This document shows, piece by piece, positions 7,296 through 58,120 of a DNA stretch of 64,000 bases. The notes below the pieces were generated by a model. That model worked only from the letters and a program-made list of their open reading frames with translations. It made no database searches and was not told where the DNA came from. Origin of the DNA: an uncultured Caulobacter sp. GTDB lineage: Bacteria; Pseudomonadota; Alphaproteobacteria; Caulobacterales; Caulobacteraceae. The number at the start of each line of letters is the position of its first letter. Position 1 is the first letter of the stretch. The DNA lies in contig NZ_CAMQSF010000017.1 in NCBI RefSeq assembly GCF_947036865.1, positions 1-64,000 on the forward strand, given 5' to 3'. Position numbers and translations under genes: made by a program.

Positions 7296-8678
7296 CTAGA
7301 TCACCGCCCGCGAACGCTCGCCGACCTCGCTGGAGAGCGCGGCGGCGACGATCTCCAGGCCCCGCCGCAGGGTCTGCTGGTCGGCGACGGCGCCCAGGCA
7401 GACGCGCACGCCGGACTCCAGGCCGGGCTCGACGCCGGGAGCGTCCGGCGGCGTGACCTCGGCCCCGCCGCGCAGGGCCCGGCCGGACAAGCGCTCGGCC
7501 GCCAGTTCGCCCATCGGCAGCCAGACGTGCGGGGCCGTGTCGGAGCGCGGCGTCTCGATGGCCTCGCCCAGGACCTCGCGGGCGATGGCCAGGCGCGCGG
7601 CCGCCTCGGCGCGGACCTCGGCGACGATGGTCTCGGCCGCGCCGTCCTCGATCCACTGGGTGGCGACCAGCCCGCCGAAGCCGGAAGGGGCGTAGGTGGT
7701 GGCGCCGACCGCGCTCAGCACGCGTTCGAAAGCCTCCGCCGTGGGCGCGACCAGAAAGCCGGCCCGCAGACCGGGCCCGAGGGTCTTGGAGACGCTGGTC
7801 ACATGGAAGGTCCGCTCCGGGGCCAGCAAGGCGAGCGGCGGCGGGGCGTTCGGCACATAAACGCCATAGACGTCGTCCTCGACGATGGTCAGGTCATGCC
7901 GGCGGGCGATGACCACGATCGCCTGGCGACGGGCCAGACTCATGATCCGGCCCGTGGGGTTCTGCAGGGTGGGAATGGTCGACAGCACGCGCGCCCCGGT
8001 CGCGCGGATGGCGGCCTCCAGCGCGTCGGGATCCAAGCCCTCGGCGTCCATGGCCACGCCCTTCAGTCGCCAGCCCGCGTGCGCCGCCAGCGCCTTGACC
8101 CCGCCATAGGTCGAGGCCTCGCACAGCACGGTGTCGCCGGCCCGCGCGACGGCGGCCGTGGCGAAGGCCAGGCCCTGCTGGGCGCCGCCGCAACAGACGA
8201 TCCGCCGCCAGTCCGCGCCCGCGAAGCCGCCGGTCATGGCCAGCCACTTGGCCCCGGCCCGCCGCTGGGCCTCGTGGCCCGCCGCCGGGGCGTAGGCCAG
8301 ATGCTCCAGGAGGTCCGGCCGCCGCCGCAGCCGCGCCAGGGCCTCGGCGATCCGGGTGGCCGCGGGGCCGGCCGGCGCGATGTTCTGAGCTAGGTTGATC
8401 GGCCCTTCGCGCCCGTACGGCCGATGCTCGGCCGGCGCGTTGACGAAGCTGCCGCGCCCGACATGGGCGCTGACCAGCCCCGCCTTCTCGGCCTCGACAT
8501 AGGCGCGGGTCACCGTGCCAAGGCCGACGCCCAGGCGATAGGCCAGGTCGCGCTGCGGCGGCAGGCGCGTTCCCGCCGCCAGCGCTCCGGACGCGATATC
8601 GGCGCGCAGGGCCGCCACCAGCCGCTCGTACAGCGGCGCGGAGCCTTCGGGCACGACAGGGGTCCAGGGGCTGGACAC
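7296..8678 (-). CDS. MocR-type transcriptional regulator (GntR helix-turn-helix plus aminotransferase domain)
   Basis: 460 residues from GTG 8678. Residues about 15-80 form a GntR winged helix (LYERLVAALRADIASGALAAG, then LPPQRDLAYRLGVGLGTVTRAY). The rest is a fold-type I PLP domain with PLP-contact motifs NPTGRIMS and VEDDVYG and the Schiff-base Lys in SVSKTLGPGLRAGF. MocR proteins use PLP or amino compounds as effectors and usually control a divergent gene. Here a perfect palindrome starts 12 bases upstream of this start, and a LysE-type exporter lies on the other side, so self-regulation and control of the exporter are likely. Confidence 0.95.
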   Translation of the reverse strand: MSSPWTPVVPEGSAPLYERLVAALRADIASGALAAGTRLPPQRDLAYRLGVGLGTVTRAYVEAEKAGLVSAHVGRGSFVNAPAEHRPYGREGPINLAQNIAPAGPAATRIAEALARLRRRPDLLEHLAYAPAAGHEAQRRAGAKWLAMTGGFAGADWRRIVCCGGAQQGLAFATAAVARAGDTVLCEASTYGGVKALAAHAGWRLKGVAMDAEGLDPDALEAAIRATGARVLSTIPTLQNPTGRIMSLARRQAIVVIARRHDLTIVEDDVYGVYVPNAPPPLALLAPERTFHVTSVSKTLGPGLRAGFLVAPTAEAFERVLSAVGATTYAPSGFGGLVATQWIEDGAAETIVAEVRAEAAARLAIAREVLGEAIETPRSDTAPHVWLPMGELAAERLSGRALRGGAEVTPPDAPGVEPGLESGVRVCLGAVADQQTLRRGLEIVAAALSSEVGERSRAVI

Positions 8679-8690
8679 GCGACATCTCCA

Positions 8691-8711
8691 ATATTGTCAT
8701 CATGACAATAT
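8691..8711. promoter_or_regulatory. 21-bp perfect palindromic operator between mocR-type gene and LysE exporter
   Basis: ATATTGTCAT-C-ATGACAATAT is a perfect 10-bp inverted repeat around one base, in the divergent promoter region. Its core (ATTGTC-N5-GACAAT) recurs at 57013-57031 in another divergent exporter locus. The natural reading is the operator of the adjacent MocR-type regulator. Confidence 0.8.
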
Positions 8712-8774
8712 GCGGCTTTGACTCTCGATACAATCGAAATCATCACGGTGACATTCCGGTCGAAGGAGCCCGAG

Positions 8775-9440
8775 ATGACCTCCCAGCTGCTGCTCGCCTA
8801 CGTGCTGTTCTGCTTCGCCACCGCCGGCACGCCGGGCCCGAACAACATGATGCTGCTGGCTTCGGGCGCGAACTTCGGCTTCCGCCGCACGATCCTGCAC
8901 ATCCTGGGGATCAGCGCGGGCCTGGGCTTCATGGTGCTGGCGATGGGACTTGGGCTGGGCGGGGTGTTTCGCGCCTATCCGGTGCTGCACGAGATCCTGC
9001 GCTGGGTTGGCGGGGCCTACATGCTGTGGCTGGCGTGGAAGATCGGGACCTCGACCTCGATCAGCGACAGGGCCGTGGGCGCCAAGCCGATGACCTTCGC
9101 CCAGGCCGCGGCCTTCCAGTGGGTCAATCCCAAGGCCTGGGCCATGGCGCTGGGCGCGGCGACCACCTACGCGCCGGAAGGGGGCGGCTGGACGGTCGTG
9201 CCGCTGCTGGCGGGAACCTTCATGCTGGTCGGCGCGCCGTGCAGCGCCGCCTGGGCCGGCTTTGGCCAGGGCCTGCGGCCGTTCCTCGACCGGCCGGCGA
9301 TCCTGCGGACCTTCAACATCGTCATGGCGCTGCTGCTGGTCGCCTCGCTCTATCCGCTGGTGGTCGAGCGGCCGAACGCCTCGACGCCGAACCTGGCCGT
9401 CGCGGGGCACGGCGCCCCGACGCCGCGCTCGCGCGGATAA
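8775..9440 (+). CDS. LysE/RhtB-family amino-acid exporter
   Basis: 221 residues from ATG 8775 with AAGGAG upstream; the track start TTG 8718 lies in the promoter region. The N-terminus (LLLAYVLFCFATAGTPGPNN) carries the LysE TPGPNN motif, followed by GxxxG-rich hydrophobic segments and about six membrane helices. The C-terminal 15 or so residues are hydrophilic. It is divergent from a MocR-type regulator and sits behind its palindrome, so expression probably responds to an amino compound sensed by that PLP protein. The substrate is not known. Confidence 0.93.
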   Translation: MTSQLLLAYVLFCFATAGTPGPNNMMLLASGANFGFRRTILHILGISAGLGFMVLAMGLGLGGVFRAYPVLHEILRWVGGAYMLWLAWKIGTSTSISDRAVGAKPMTFAQAAAFQWVNPKAWAMALGAATTYAPEGGGWTVVPLLAGTFMLVGAPCSAAWAGFGQGLRPFLDRPAILRTFNIVMALLLVASLYPLVVERPNASTPNLAVAGHGAPTPRSRG

Positions 9441-52716: not shown

Positions 52717-52848
52717 CTTCCCCTCTCCCCTTGCGGGTGGCCCCGGCCAAAGCCGGGGGGCGGGTGAGGGGTCGCGCCGTCGCCGGAAAAGCCTTTCAAC
52801 CCCTCATCCGGCGCTGCGCGCCACCTTCTCCCGCAAGGGGAGAAGGAG
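52717..52848. repeat. Palindromic intergenic element, family D copy, overlapping the MFS gene
   Basis: CTTCCCCTCTCCCCTTGCGGG pairs with CCCGCAAGGGGAGAAGGAG, with inner CGGGTGAGGGGT / ACCCCTCATCCG. The right arm (52804-52848) lies inside the MFS reading frame and encodes its last residues. Confidence 0.8.
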
Positions 52849-54168
52849 AATGACCGCCGCCGCGACCAGCATGACGGCCGCGACCAAGCCCGACGCGCGC
52901 AACCCCGTCACCAGGTCCGCCCCCGCCAGCGCCCCGAAGATCGCCACCCCCGCCGCGCCGCCGACCTGGCGGCAGGCGTTGAGCGTCCCCGACGCCGCGC
53001 CGGCCTCGGACCGGTCGACGCTGGCCAGCAGGCCGCTGGTCAGGGCGGGGATGGCCAGGCCCATGCCGCCGGGGATCAAGGCGAAGCCCGGCAGCATGTC
53101 GAGAAAGCCGCTCGCCGCGCCCAGCCGCGCGGTCAGGGCGTAGCCGCAGGCCGCGATCAGCACCCCGCCGGCGGTGACCGCCCCCGCGCCCAGCCGCGCG
53201 ACCAGAGCGCCGCTCAAGAGGTTCGAGACGACGAAGGTCGCCGTCAGCGGCAGGAAGGCCAGGCGCGCCCGCGATGGGCTCCAGCCCAGCGCTCGCGACA
53301 GATAGAGTCCCAGCACGAAGATCAGGCCGTAATAGGTGAAGTTCAGGGTCGAGCCGACGACCACCGCCGTCCAGGCCGGACGCCGGCGGAACACGGCCGG
53401 CGGCATGGCCGGGTGCGGGGCTTGGCGCTCGTACAGCCCGAAGACCAAGGCCAGGGCCACGCCCGCGATCAGGCAGGCGGTCGGCGCGCCGCTCCAGCCC
53501 CGATGGCCGCCCTCGATCAGCCCACCGACCAGCAGGGTGACGGCGGCGACGGCCAGGGCCTGGCCGGGCGCATCGAACGGGACCTTGGGCCTGGGCGGCG
53601 TCGTGGGCGCGACGATGGCCGTCAGGGCGGCGCCGATCGCGCAGAGCGGCAGGTTGACGAAGAACACCCAGCGCCAGCCGAGACTCTCCACCAGCAGGCC
53701 GCCCAGCACCGGTCCGGCGGCGATCGACACCCCGCCGGCGGCGGTCCACCAGCCCACGGCGGCGGCGCGCTTCTTGTCGTCGCCATGGGCGGCGTGGGCG
53801 ATCAGGGCCAGGGACGGCGGGATCAACAACGCGCCGGCCGCGCCCTGGGCCACCCGCCCGCCGATCAGGGCCGCCGGGCTCGTCGCGAGGCCGCAGGCCG
53901 CCGAGGCCAGGCCGAACAGCACGAGCCCCGCGATGAACGCCCGCTTGGGCCCGACCCGATCGCCGATCGCGCCCGCCGACAGCAGCATCGCCGCCAGCGC
54001 CAGCACATAGGCGTCCACCACCCATTGCAGCGCCGCCGTCCGCGCGCCCAGCGCTCGGCCCAGGGCGTCGAGCGCGACATTGACGATGGTCACGTCCAGC
54101 TGGGTGACCAGGAAGCCGAAGCTGGCGGCGGCCGTGATCCAGGCCAGGCGGGAAGACGCGGTGCTCAT
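52804..54168 (-). CDS. MFS transporter, DHA2 (14-segment) type
   Basis: 454 residues with about 14 membrane segments. Motif A-like GAIGDRVGPKRAF and the DHA2 start TQLDVTIVNVALDALG, QWVVDAYVLALAAMLLSAGA are present, and SRSLGWRWVFFVNLP follows. It is a proton-driven exporter of drugs or metabolites. The last residues LPLREKVARSAG are encoded by a palindromic element, so the natural C-terminus may have been altered. It is divergent from an ArsR-type regulator. Confidence 0.93.
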   Translation of the reverse strand: MSTASSRLAWITAAASFGFLVTQLDVTIVNVALDALGRALGARTAALQWVVDAYVLALAAMLLSAGAIGDRVGPKRAFIAGLVLFGLASAACGLATSPAALIGGRVAQGAAGALLIPPSLALIAHAAHGDDKKRAAAVGWWTAAGGVSIAAGPVLGGLLVESLGWRWVFFVNLPLCAIGAALTAIVAPTTPPRPKVPFDAPGQALAVAAVTLLVGGLIEGGHRGWSGAPTACLIAGVALALVFGLYERQAPHPAMPPAVFRRRPAWTAVVVGSTLNFTYYGLIFVLGLYLSRALGWSPSRARLAFLPLTATFVVSNLLSGALVARLGAGAVTAGGVLIAACGYALTARLGAASGFLDMLPGFALIPGGMGLAIPALTSGLLASVDRSEAGAASGTLNACRQVGGAAGVAIFGALAGADLVTGLRASGLVAAVMLVAAAVILLLPLREKVARSAG

Positions 54169-54242
54169 GCCCCGGTTTGACCCGCCGCGCGGCCCGATTG
54201 CTACACGCGTCGATGAACCATTCCGAGCGCGATGGGTCTAGG

Positions 54243-54956
54243 ATGCCGTCGATGGACGCCAATATCGCCTCCCCCGCCGCCCTGATCGGCGAGCCGACCC
54301 GCGCCGCCATGCTGCAGGCGCTGATGGACGGCCGCGCCCAGCCGGCCAGCGCCCTGGCCTGGGCCGCCGGCGTCACCGCCCAGGCCGCCAGCAACCACCT
54401 GGCCAGGCTGGTCGACGGCGGACTGCTGGCCGTCGAGCGCGAGGGGCGTCACCGCTATTATCGCCTGGCCTCGTCCGAGGTGGCGCACGCGCTGGAGGCG
54501 CTGGCGGTGCTGGCCGCCCCCGTCCGCTCCCTGGCGGTTCCCCGCTCGCCCAAGGCCCGCGCCTTGCGCGACGCCCGCTGCTGCTACGGACATCTGGCCG
54601 GACGGCTGGGCGTGAGGGTCTGCGAGGCCCTGGTCGCCCGCGACCTGATCCGCCCGGAACAGGACAAGCGCTACGCGGTCACGCCCGAAGGCCGCGACTG
54701 GTTCGAGGCGCTGGGCGTCGGGCTCGACGGGCTGCGGTCGCCGCGCGGCGTCGCGCGCCAGTGCCTGGACTGGACCGAGCGCCGCCATCACCTGGCCGGT
54801 CCTCTAGGCGTGGCGCTGTTGAACGCGATGGTCGCGCGCGGCTGGCTGGCGCTGGAGCCCAAGGGCCGCGCCGCCCGCCTGACGCCCGACGGCGCCGCGG
54901 CGCTGCGGACCTTGCTGGACGTCGGTCTGGACGACCTCGACCAGGCGGCCGCGTAG
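54243..54956 (+). CDS. ArsR-family transcriptional regulator
   Basis: 237 residues from ATG 54243 (54252 is also possible; the track start is 54177). The winged helix is AALIGEPTRAAMLQALMDGRAQPASALAWAAGVTAQAASNHLARLVDGGLL (shown in parts), then REGRHRYYRLAS. The C-terminal half (DARCCYGHLAGRLGVRVCEALV) has a Cys pair and is shared by ArsR proteins that control a divergent MFS or DMT exporter. It likely represses the MFS gene. The 260 bases that follow hold only the Abi leader. Confidence 0.9.
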   Translation: MPSMDANIASPAALIGEPTRAAMLQALMDGRAQPASALAWAAGVTAQAASNHLARLVDGGLLAVEREGRHRYYRLASSEVAHALEALAVLAAPVRSLAVPRSPKARALRDARCCYGHLAGRLGVRVCEALVARDLIRPEQDKRYAVTPEGRDWFEALGVGLDGLRSPRGVARQCLDWTERRHHLAGPLGVALLNAMVARGWLALEPKGRAARLTPDGAAALRTLLDVGLDDLDQAAA

Positions 54957-55215: not shown

Positions 55216-55869
55216 ATGGCGCGGATCGACGACATGGAAACGGCGCTCTCGCTTGAGCGGTTCGGCCGCTATGTCGCCTGGGCCGGCGGGGATCGCGAGC
55301 GGGCCTTGGACCTCTACACGCTCAACACCCGAGTGTCCGAGGCGCTCTACATCGCGCTCCAGACCCTGGAAGTCAGTCTGCGTAATCGCATCCACACCGT
55401 GATGGCGGCCAAGCACGGCGAGCGCTGGTTCCAGGACGCCGACCTGATCAAAGCGCCGCTCCAGCGAGCCCAGGTCGCCGAGGCGATCCGCGACCTGGAA
55501 GCCGAGGGCAAGGACACAACGGCGGGCCGGGTCGTGGCGGCCCTCAGCTTCAGCTTCTGGACGGCGATGTTCAGTCCCGCCTACGAGGACCTCTGGCGTT
55601 CGACCTTGCGGTTCATCGCCGTCCGCGAGGGCAAGGGTTTGACGCGCAAGGACTTCTCGCGACCGCTCACTCAGATCCGGCTGCTGCGCAACCGGGTCGC
55701 CCATCACGAGCCGATCCTGCACTGGGATCTCCATCGGCATCACCGCCTGCTGCGCGAGCTGACGCTGTGGCTGTCGCCCCCGGCGTTCGCCTGGAGCCGG
55801 GCCTTGGACCGGTTCGAAGCGGTCTATCCGGCTGAAGGCGCGCTGCTGGCCCGCGACGCCCAGGACTGA
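55216..55869 (+). CDS. Abi-like (AbiD/AbiF, Abi_2) HEPN protein
   Basis: 217 residues. The pattern LERFGRYVAWAGGDRERALDLYTLNTRVSEALYIALQTLEVSLRNRIH and the conserved LLRNRVAHHEPIL match the Abi_2 family. The RNxxxH box (RNRVAH) is the HEPN ribonuclease-type motif. Family members give abortive phage infection. It is alone, with no antitoxin, methyltransferase or other defence gene adjacent, and its upstream region is locally richer in A and T (GATAACAACCTAGAGTAATTCC). Confidence 0.88.
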   Translation: MARIDDMETALSLERFGRYVAWAGGDRERALDLYTLNTRVSEALYIALQTLEVSLRNRIHTVMAAKHGERWFQDADLIKAPLQRAQVAEAIRDLEAEGKDTTAGRVVAALSFSFWTAMFSPAYEDLWRSTLRFIAVREGKGLTRKDFSRPLTQIRLLRNRVAHHEPILHWDLHRHHRLLRELTLWLSPPAFAWSRALDRFEAVYPAEGALLARDAQD

Positions 55870-55878
55870 GAGTCGCCG

Positions 55879-56934
55879 CTACGGCCGCAGCACCATCCCC
55901 ACATCCGCCGCCGTCCCGCCATCGACCTGTTCCAGATAGGCCGCGCGGATGGCGTCCGGCCCCTGCCCGTCCCGCACCTTCAGCCAGCGCGGCGCGTCGG
56001 CGGCGAAGGGGGTCCAGGCCGCGCCGTAGCGGGTTTCGAACTCGCCCGGCGCCCAGTCGGTCCGGCGCTTGGCGATGCGGTCGGGGGCGAAGAAGAAGGC
56101 GGGCTTGGGGCCGGGCAGCGCCGCCTGGACGCGCGGGACCTCCCAGTGGGTGCCGCCGACCAGGATCGAGGCCTTCAGGGCGTCGCCGAACCGGTGGTGC
56201 ACCGCGCCGAGCACGGCGCTGTCGCCGGCGAAGTCGACGAACACCGCGCCGCCGTCGATCGCCGCTCCGGCGATATCGTCGTAGAGCACCACCTCGTCAT
56301 AGAAGCCGAGGCCCTCGACGAACGCCTGGTTGCGCGGCGAGGTCAGGCCGACGACCTTCACCGCCCCGCGCCGCTTCAACAGGGCCGCCAGGGCGATCGC
56401 GGTCTTGGACGAGGCGCTGGACAGGATCACGCGGGCCGCGCCGTGGAAGCCGGCCTCGTCCAGCTGGTCGTCGATCAGGAACGAGGTGACGAACAGCGGC
56501 TGCAGCAGGGCGCGATAGGCCTCCGACGCGTCCTCGGCCCCGACCGACTGGTACTGGTTGTAGACCACCGGCAGCGGCAGGCGGTGCGGCGCGACGTCGG
56601 TGAAGCCGCCCTTGCTGGCCTTGGCCTCCACGGTCAGGTGGGTGGACATCGGCCAATAGCCGTAGAACCGCTGGCCGACGGCCAGGTCCGGATGGGCCGA
56701 GGCCTCGACCCGGGCATAGCCCCAGACCGGCACGCGGCCAAAGCCGTCTGGGGCCGGGAAGAAGTCCCAGTAGCGCATCGCCTCGCCGAACACGGCGTAG
56801 GTGATGTTGTTGGCGGTCAGGGCGAAGCTCTCGATCGCCAGGCGCGCCTGGCCGTCGGCCAGCGGCGGCGGCTCGACCTCGCGGATCTCCGTCCGGCGCA
56901 GATCGGTCTTGGCGACCAGCAGATCCCAGGCCAT
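55879..56934 (-). CDS. DUF2855 family protein
   Basis: 351 residues. WDLLVAKTDLRRTEIREVEPPPL, FALTANNITYAVFGEAMRYWDFFP and the Rossmann-like AARVILSSASSKTAIALAALLKRRG define DUF2855, an MDR-like dehydrogenase relative with no established substrate. It is divergent from the EamA exporter, with the palindrome shared with the MocR locus in between. An enzyme and exporter pair is thus a plausible unit. Confidence 0.93.
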   Translation of the reverse strand: MAWDLLVAKTDLRRTEIREVEPPPLADGQARLAIESFALTANNITYAVFGEAMRYWDFFPAPDGFGRVPVWGYARVEASAHPDLAVGQRFYGYWPMSTHLTVEAKASKGGFTDVAPHRLPLPVVYNQYQSVGAEDASEAYRALLQPLFVTSFLIDDQLDEAGFHGAARVILSSASSKTAIALAALLKRRGAVKVVGLTSPRNQAFVEGLGFYDEVVLYDDIAGAAIDGGAVFVDFAGDSAVLGAVHHRFGDALKASILVGGTHWEVPRVQAALPGPKPAFFFAPDRIAKRRTDWAPGEFETRYGAAWTPFAADAPRWLKVRDGQGPDAIRAAYLEQVDGGTAADVGMVLRP

Positions 56935-57012: not shown

Positions 57013-57031
57013 CATTGTCATCGGGACAATG
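57013..57031. promoter_or_regulatory. Palindromic operator between DUF2855 and EamA genes
   Basis: CATTGTC-ATCGG-GACAATG, 7-bp arms and a 5-base centre. The core ATTGTC-ATC-NN-GACAAT is the same as the 8691-8711 operator. It lies 65 bases before the EamA start and 78 before the DUF2855 start. Confidence 0.75.
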
Positions 57032-57096
57032 TTTCGATTGCGGCGCGGCCAGCCAGGGGGCAAGCCGGACCGTGATCCCGGACGAACGGAGCGGTC

Positions 57097-57996
57097 ATGA
57101 CCCACGCGCCCCTGCCTCTGCGCCACCTGCTGCTGGCCCTGGCCGTGGTGGCCGTCTGGGGGACGAACTTCGTCGTCATCCGGATCGGCCTCAACCACCT
57201 GCCGCCGCTGCTGTTCGCCACCCTGCGCTTCACGCTGGTGCTGCTGCCGATGGCGTTCTTCGTCAAGCGGCCGGCCGTTCCGTGGAAGAACCTCGCCGCC
57301 TATGGCGTGCTGATCGGGGCCGGGCAGTTTGGCCTGCTGTTCGTGGCCATGAAGGGCCACATCTCGCCGGGCCTGGCGTCACTGGTGGTGCAGACCCAGG
57401 TGTTCTTCACCATCGGCATGGCCATGGCGATCAGCAAGGAGCAGGTGCGCGGCTTCCAGATCGTGGCCCTGCTGCTGGCCGCCTCGGGCATCCTGCTGAT
57501 CGCCGCGCACGGCGGCGGCTCGGCCACGCCGCTGGGCGTCTTGCTGGTGCTGCTGGCGGCCGCCAGTTGGTCGGGCGGCAACATCGTCGCGCGCCAAGCC
57601 GGGCCGGTGAACATGCTGGGCTATGTGGTCTGGGCGAGCCTGTTCTCGATCCCGCCGCTTTTCGCCATGTCGCTGTGGCTGGAGGGCTGGCCGGCCATCG
57701 TCAAGGGCGTGACGGGCGCGGACGCGGCGACCTGGGCCGCCGTCGCCTGGCAGGCGGTGGGCAACACGATGTTCGGCTACGCCGCCTGGGGCTGGCTGCT
57801 GGCCCGCCATCCGGCCGCGACGATCACGCCGATGGCCCTCCTGGTGCCCGTCTTCGGCATGGGCGCCTCGGCCCTTTTGCTGCACGAGGGCCTGCCGGCC
57901 TGGAAGCTGATCGCCGCGGCGCTGGTGCTGACGGGCTTGGCGGTGAATATCCTTTGGCCGAAGGTGCGGGCGAGAGTGGCGGCGGCGGCGGCTTGA
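57097..57996 (+). CDS. EamA-family transporter
   Basis: 299 residues with ten membrane segments in two EamA halves: VVAVWGTNFVVIRIGLNHLPPLLFATLR and the C-terminal WGWLLARHPAATITPMALLVPVFGMGASALLL, like E. coli YdeD/EamA, an exporter of cysteine-related metabolites. It stands behind the palindrome shared with the MocR-LysE locus and is divergent from DUF2855. Confidence 0.93.
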   Translation: MTHAPLPLRHLLLALAVVAVWGTNFVVIRIGLNHLPPLLFATLRFTLVLLPMAFFVKRPAVPWKNLAAYGVLIGAGQFGLLFVAMKGHISPGLASLVVQTQVFFTIGMAMAISKEQVRGFQIVALLLAASGILLIAAHGGGSATPLGVLLVLLAAASWSGGNIVARQAGPVNMLGYVVWASLFSIPPLFAMSLWLEGWPAIVKGVTGADAATWAAVAWQAVGNTMFGYAAWGWLLARHPAATITPMALLVPVFGMGASALLLHEGLPAWKLIAAALVLTGLAVNILWPKVRARVAAAAA

Positions 57997-58010
57997 GGTC
58001 CAAAATCCCG

Positions 58011-58120
58011 TGTCATCCCGGAAGCCTCGCAGAGGCTATCCGGGACCCAGGGGGTGAAAGAGCGCTGTGCTTGCGGCCCCTGGGTCCCGGCTCTCCGCTA
58101 CGCTCCGGCCGGGATGACAC
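58011..58120. repeat. Palindromic intergenic element, family A copy 2
   Basis: TGTCATCCCGGAAGCCTCGC... to ...CCGGGATGACA, arms perfect at the ends. Nearly identical to 45801-45905 over about 40 bases at each end, with a different middle (GTGAAAGAGCGCTGTGC). Confidence 0.92.

Follow-up and report, generated by a model that had tools for sequence, protein, structure and literature searches.

Gene content of the two palindrome-bearing loci

The stretch of DNA analyzed here (the window, 64 kb of contig C17 of an uncultured Caulobacter assembly) carries two palindromes with the same arms, 48 kb apart, each in front of an exporter gene (Table 1). The first lies between a divergently transcribed mocR gene and lysE; the second, CATTGTC-ATCGG-GACAATG, is present as the initial annotation had described it, and Pfam matches bear out its statement that exporters stand beside both sites. 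The mocR product combines an N-terminal GntR-type winged helix-turn-helix (wHTH) domain (PF00392, residues 16–79) with a C-terminal fold-type-I aminotransferase domain (PF00155), which places it in the MocR/GabR subfamily, and K298 (SVSK298TLGPG), which aligns with the aminotransferase SK motif, is its putative PLP-binding lysine. Its matches to NCBIfam equivalogs of the EhuR, PdxR, GabR and YczR types all fall below the respective cut-offs (EhuR, the best, 378 against 480; PdxR, 178.9 against 320; GabR, 59.6 against 600). A conserved candidate operator is present in mocR’s own divergent promoter region. For lysE, ATG 8775, which has GGAG upstream, is a better start than TTG 8718, and with this start operator 1 ends 65 bp before the gene, close to the distances found at the other two targets described below (66 and 60 bp).

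Table 1 Features of the two loci within the 64-kb window.
Feature	Positions	Strand	Description
mocR	7296..8678	-	Proposed regulator; GntR-type wHTH plus fold-type-I aminotransferase domain (Pfam GntR 1.8e-15, Aminotran_1_2 1.5e-25)
Operator 1	8691..8711	.	Perfect palindrome ATATTGTCAT-C-ATGACAATAT (10-1-10) between mocR and lysE
Operator 1 core	8693-8709		ATTGTC-N5-GACAAT, kept at orthologous mocR/lysE regions
-35-like element, lysE side	8717..8724	+	TTTGACTC; identity of 90% or higher across 22 orthologous regions; 7 bp downstream of operator 1
lysE	8775..9440	+	LysE/RhtB-type exporter gene, proposed target (Pfam LysE 7.2e-17)
DUF2855 gene	55879..56934	-	Divergent from eamA, regulon membership doubtful (Pfam DUF2855 1.9e-103)
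Operator 2	57013..57031	.	7-bp perfect arms, 5-bp spacer; 66 bp upstream of eamA
Operator 2 core	57014-57030		
-35-like element, eamA side	57037..57042	+	ATTGCG, conserved (A/G)TTGC element 6 bp downstream of operator 2; kept in G001
eamA	57097..57996	+	EamA-type (DMT) exporter gene, proposed trans target (Pfam EamA 4.5e-28)

The second locus had been described as lacking a regulator gene. None flanks it directly. About 2 kb from the site is an ArsR-type HTH gene (54177-54956), which diverges from an MFS transporter gene; the pair (52804-54956) is without the palindrome. A gene for an Abi_2-like protein of the abortive-infection type (55216-55869) adjoins the DUF2855 gene, and an imperfect inverted repeat, GTGTCATCCCGG...CCGGGATGACAC, follows eamA at 58010-58118. 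Strings resembling gggatgaca near sites in related genomes suggest a dispersed intergenic repeat.

Three perfect sites in the genome

Within the window, ATTGTCATCNNGACAAT has two perfect plus-strand matches, compared with a mean of 0.20 in shuffled sequences even when three mismatches are allowed. A pattern scan of the whole 4.25-Mb assembly for ATTGTC-N5-GACAAT returned three perfect, no one-mismatch and 33 two-mismatch matches, where base composition predicts about 0.017 perfect matches per genome. All three perfect sites (C17:8693, C17:57014 and C49:8511) lie upstream of genes; the motif did not turn out to be common outside promoters, an outcome that the initial annotation had named as one that would count against it. 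The annotation had also read the shared sequence as ATTGTC-ATC-NN-GACAAT. Its arms hold, and the two sites are one operator, but ATC is not part of the motif because the spacer is variable at orthologous sites, with a length of 6 bp in some of them.

The third operator (C49:8511-8527, L003:1501-1517) lies outside the window, 60 bp upstream of a PhzF-family gene (Pfam PhzC-PhzF 6e-51) that comes after thiD and a nucleotidyltransferase (NTP_transf_6) gene. Judged by the sequence comparisons below, this phzF gene is the third predicted target of the regulator and the most consistently conserved member of the putative regulon.

Conservation across Caulobacter and related genera

Across 61 Caulobacter genomes we found 48 perfect sites in 28 genomes, against a single match for the reversed pattern. 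Locating the reference proteins around each site placed 46 of the 48 beside genes of the proposed regulon: mocR/lysE accounts for 15, eamA for 12 and phzF itself for 17, and the other two stand upstream of a DJ-1/PfpI gene with phzF behind it. At unchanged distances from the start codon, orthologous promoters also have sites with one mismatch and sites with a 6-bp spacer. The two remaining perfect sites, one each in G042 and G045, have no related gene nearby, and these, together with the 33 two-mismatch matches in our genome, which show that weak matches are common, are what speaks for operator 2 being a chance match. The low expectation per genome and the retention of the site, at almost the same distance, in front of the orthologous eamA genes of about 21 genomes make that reading exceedingly improbable; conservation excludes it.

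Sites and regulator occur together. Orthologs of mocR (63–83% identity) are found in 37 other genomes, one of them (G004) as a fragment; five further genomes hold a relative at 48–57% identity and 18 hold none. When we scored phzF genes for the operator, allowing an N5 or N6 spacer and no more than one mismatch, all 37 scored in genomes with mocR carried a site, compared with none of 11 in genomes without mocR. Of these 37, 31 have it directly (29 were scored by script, and G007 and G036 add N6 sites) and six have it through a DJ-1/PfpI-phzF operon. The eamA gene carries a site in 21 of 33 genomes with mocR and in 0 of 11 without. The Fisher values of 8e-4 and 3e-6 ignore phylogeny, and because the genomes without mocR are mostly deep lineages these counts are not independent events, G001 alone being a clearly independent loss. 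Since about one-third of the mocR-bearing genomes with eamA have a siteless copy, the eamA link is lineage-specific. Among the genomes compared, lysE was found only alongside this mocR.

Gene order elsewhere brings regulator and target together. Divergent mocR and phzF genes flank the operator in G037, where the site has one mismatch, and in other genera (L190 and L222). In those other genera of the family, the perfect site separates mocR from phzF at L222, from a GNAT-phzF pair at L208 and L213 and from lysE at L212 and L219 (L220 is similar), and at L209 and L223 it stands upstream of phzF after thiD and the nucleotidyltransferase gene. By these comparisons, the predicted trans link between mocR and phzF turns into a cis link in other lineages, which marks phzF as the most constant target.

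Several variants of the arrangement were also seen. In the G004/G022 clade (C. endophyticus-radicis type; L206:1580-2277, L031:820-1517), a DJ-1/PfpI gene is inserted between the operator and phzF, and the two genes apparently form an operon. Two tandem operator copies, 20 bp apart, precede phzF in G054 (L054) and G008 (L167). Four deep-branching genomes, G019, G038, G049 and G040 (L193, L194, L195 and L196), encode a 54–56% MocR divergent from an approximately 50% PhzF relative (at L193 a GFA-like gene separates them) and carry an altered palindrome, ATTGA-N7-TCAAT; here operator and wHTH have possibly changed together.

Loss of mocR and the identity of the binder

The strongest single case for the link between mocR and the operator is G001, a complete assembly nested with good support in the mocR-bearing clade. 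It lacks both mocR and lysE and retains eamA (approximately 90%) and phzF (80%). Both retained promoters have a decayed palindrome next to preserved -35-like and -10-like bases (the intact stretches are GTTTCGGTTGC and CTTTGC...GCATAAC), a pattern predicted by loss of the binding protein.

A different regulator, either a MocR paralog or another GntR or TetR protein, could in principle bind the palindrome and leave the adjacency of mocR incidental, and this genome does offer candidates, with 14 tblastn matches to the MocR query. We consider this very unlikely. Five genomes without this mocR (G001, G009, G013, G050 and G051) keep a paralog of about 42% identity, yet their target promoters are siteless, and across genera the site stays with mocR whether its divergent partner is lysE, phzF or GNAT-phzF. 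The MocR paralog on contig C65 has a palindrome of its own upstream, CATACAT-N10-ATGTATG (L204:1220-1243), a candidate operator for that protein; as this differs from ATTGTC-N5-GACAAT, we rejected the C65 paralog as the binder.

Genome-wide uniqueness, placement, conservation at orthologous promoters and loss together with mocR thus lend strong in silico support to trans control, and we are highly confident in the prediction that this MocR controls lysE, eamA and phzF in trans. The initial annotation’s proposal of trans control by the MocR protein, as the likely binder of both palindromes, stands on the same evidence.

Promoter architecture and predicted mode of control

A simple scan found no consensus σ70 promoter, a result that is uninformative for Caulobacter, and we read promoter positions from conservation. 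At each target the operator lies 6–7 bp upstream of a conserved element (TTTGACTC at lysE, (A/G)TTGC at eamA, CTTTGC at phzF), with CATAAC 17 bp further on at phzF. On the opposite side of operator 1, only 14 bp separate its end from the mocR start codon. Three-box MocR motifs exist, and the (A/T)TTG(A/C)C sequence 6–7 bp downstream might have been a third MocR half-site. We disfavor that assignment: the element survives in G001, where MocR is missing and the palindrome has decayed, and is therefore more likely a -35 element.

Together, these features suggest the following model. ATTGTC-N5(6)-GACAAT would be the operator of the MocR/GabR-type regulator encoded beside it and would mark three promoters, those of the mocR/lysE divergon, of eamA at a distance of 48 kb and, on a separate contig, of phzF. 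MocR bound to operator 1 would block mocR transcription or its early leader and so repress its own gene, whereas the position of the operator just upstream of the -35 element at lysE, eamA and phzF, together with the precedent of GabR and PdxR, would suit activation. The aminotransferase-like domain may sense an amino compound or a PLP adduct, and effector-sensing MocR would then switch on two exporters and a PhzF-like enzyme as an efflux or clearance response.

We judge that MocR probably activates rather than represses its three targets. Where GabR- and PdxR-type MocRs have divergent targets, they switch these on and repress their own gene (PMC5320631). The opposite arrangement, in which MocR represses all three promoters and leaves them on binding its effector, so that the exporters are derepressed, draws on the overlap of the operator with the mocR start region and on EnuR and PtsJ, known MocR-type repressors according to excerpts of PMC8739950 and PMC6522883, respectively. 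It sits less well with a palindrome that at lysE, eamA and phzF lies upstream of the -35-like element and not over the -10 or the start, with the survival of the promoter elements in G001, and with the GabR/PdxR precedent, and we regard it as rather unlikely.

Doubtful membership of DUF2855

The regulon as first proposed joined LysE, EamA and DUF2855 in one detoxification unit. Its lysE and eamA parts agree with our data, phzF had been missed, and the inclusion of DUF2855 fares poorly. In this strain the DUF2855 gene diverges from eamA with operator 2 only 80 bp from its start, and the two genes are also adjacent in nine other site-bearing genomes. This brings adjacency to 10 of 21 site-bearing eamA loci; at the other 11, a TetR gene (L049) or other genes take the DUF2855 position, and G045 has the DUF2855-eamA adjacency with no site there. 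A literature search for DUF2855 gave nothing. Operator 2 may affect DUF2855 in this strain, with no sign of a conserved role; we find co-regulation of this gene doubtful, and the LysE, EamA and DUF2855 unit as a whole slightly more so.

Comparison with known MocR systems and possible function

MocR regulons that include DMT and LysE/YggA transporters together with PhzF-like enzymes have been predicted before, as has a link between PhzF and DMT proteins across MocR regulons (Suvorova & Rodionov 2016, PMC5320631). The PdxQ groups of that study resemble the present system in pairing a MocR with DMT-type and LysE/YggA-type transporters and a PhzF-like (COG384) enzyme. Here, however, the operator is one inverted repeat with a 5–6-bp spacer, no pdxH- or pdxO-type gene carries the site, and neither gene was found beside any of the three sites. 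We therefore rejected a PdxQ assignment: the defining PLP-metabolic genes are absent, although the transporters and PhzF are present. Like GabR of B. subtilis and the PdxR activators, this MocR sits in a divergon, combines a wHTH with an aminotransferase domain and is expected to repress itself and activate its targets; GabR, however, binds direct repeats, whereas here the site is an inverted repeat at three unlinked promoters and the targets include exporters.

The best NCBIfam matches of the two transporters are to the E. coli EamA (YdeD) and EamB (YfiK) families. EamA matches PRK11453 (O-acetylserine/cysteine exporter) at 199.9 bits against an equivalog cut-off of 472, and LysE matches PRK10323 (cysteine/O-acetylserine transporter, EamB type) at 83.8 bits against 193, scores so far below the cut-offs that substrates are not transferable. 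The E. coli proteins export cysteine (PMC11050555). The PhzF protein is homologous to the solved PhzF and YddE structures of the PhzF/YddE isomerase family; no phenazine genes were seen around phzF, whose neighbors are the ThiD and nucleotidyltransferase genes. From this gene content, a role in amino-compound efflux appears likely, and the detoxification or export function suggested by the initial annotation is plausible. A more specific and distinctly speculative reading, which we hold to be improbable, is that a PLP-sensing MocR detects a PLP-reactive compound of the cysteine/O-acetylserine type, as the best matches of both exporters suggest, and turns on the EamA-like and EamB-like exporters and the PhzF-like enzyme to relieve PLP adducts.

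Implications for MocR regulons

To our knowledge, neither targets nor an effector have been identified for most MocR regulators. We found no paper on a Caulobacter MocR regulon in the open-access literature, and the present one could already be listed in RegPrecise or in the supplementary tables of PMC5320631. Because regulons of this kind were predicted in that study, the kind is known and the Caulobacter example is new. A three-site operator, together with a lineage that has lost regulator and operators together, points to a small, complete regulon in a tractable genus. The association of PhzF-like enzymes with DMT exporters, so far predicted and unexplained, receives independent support from it, and a LysE-type exporter joins that association. 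If true, the PLP-guarding reading would give a function to the recurrent association of MocR, DMT and PhzF proteins.
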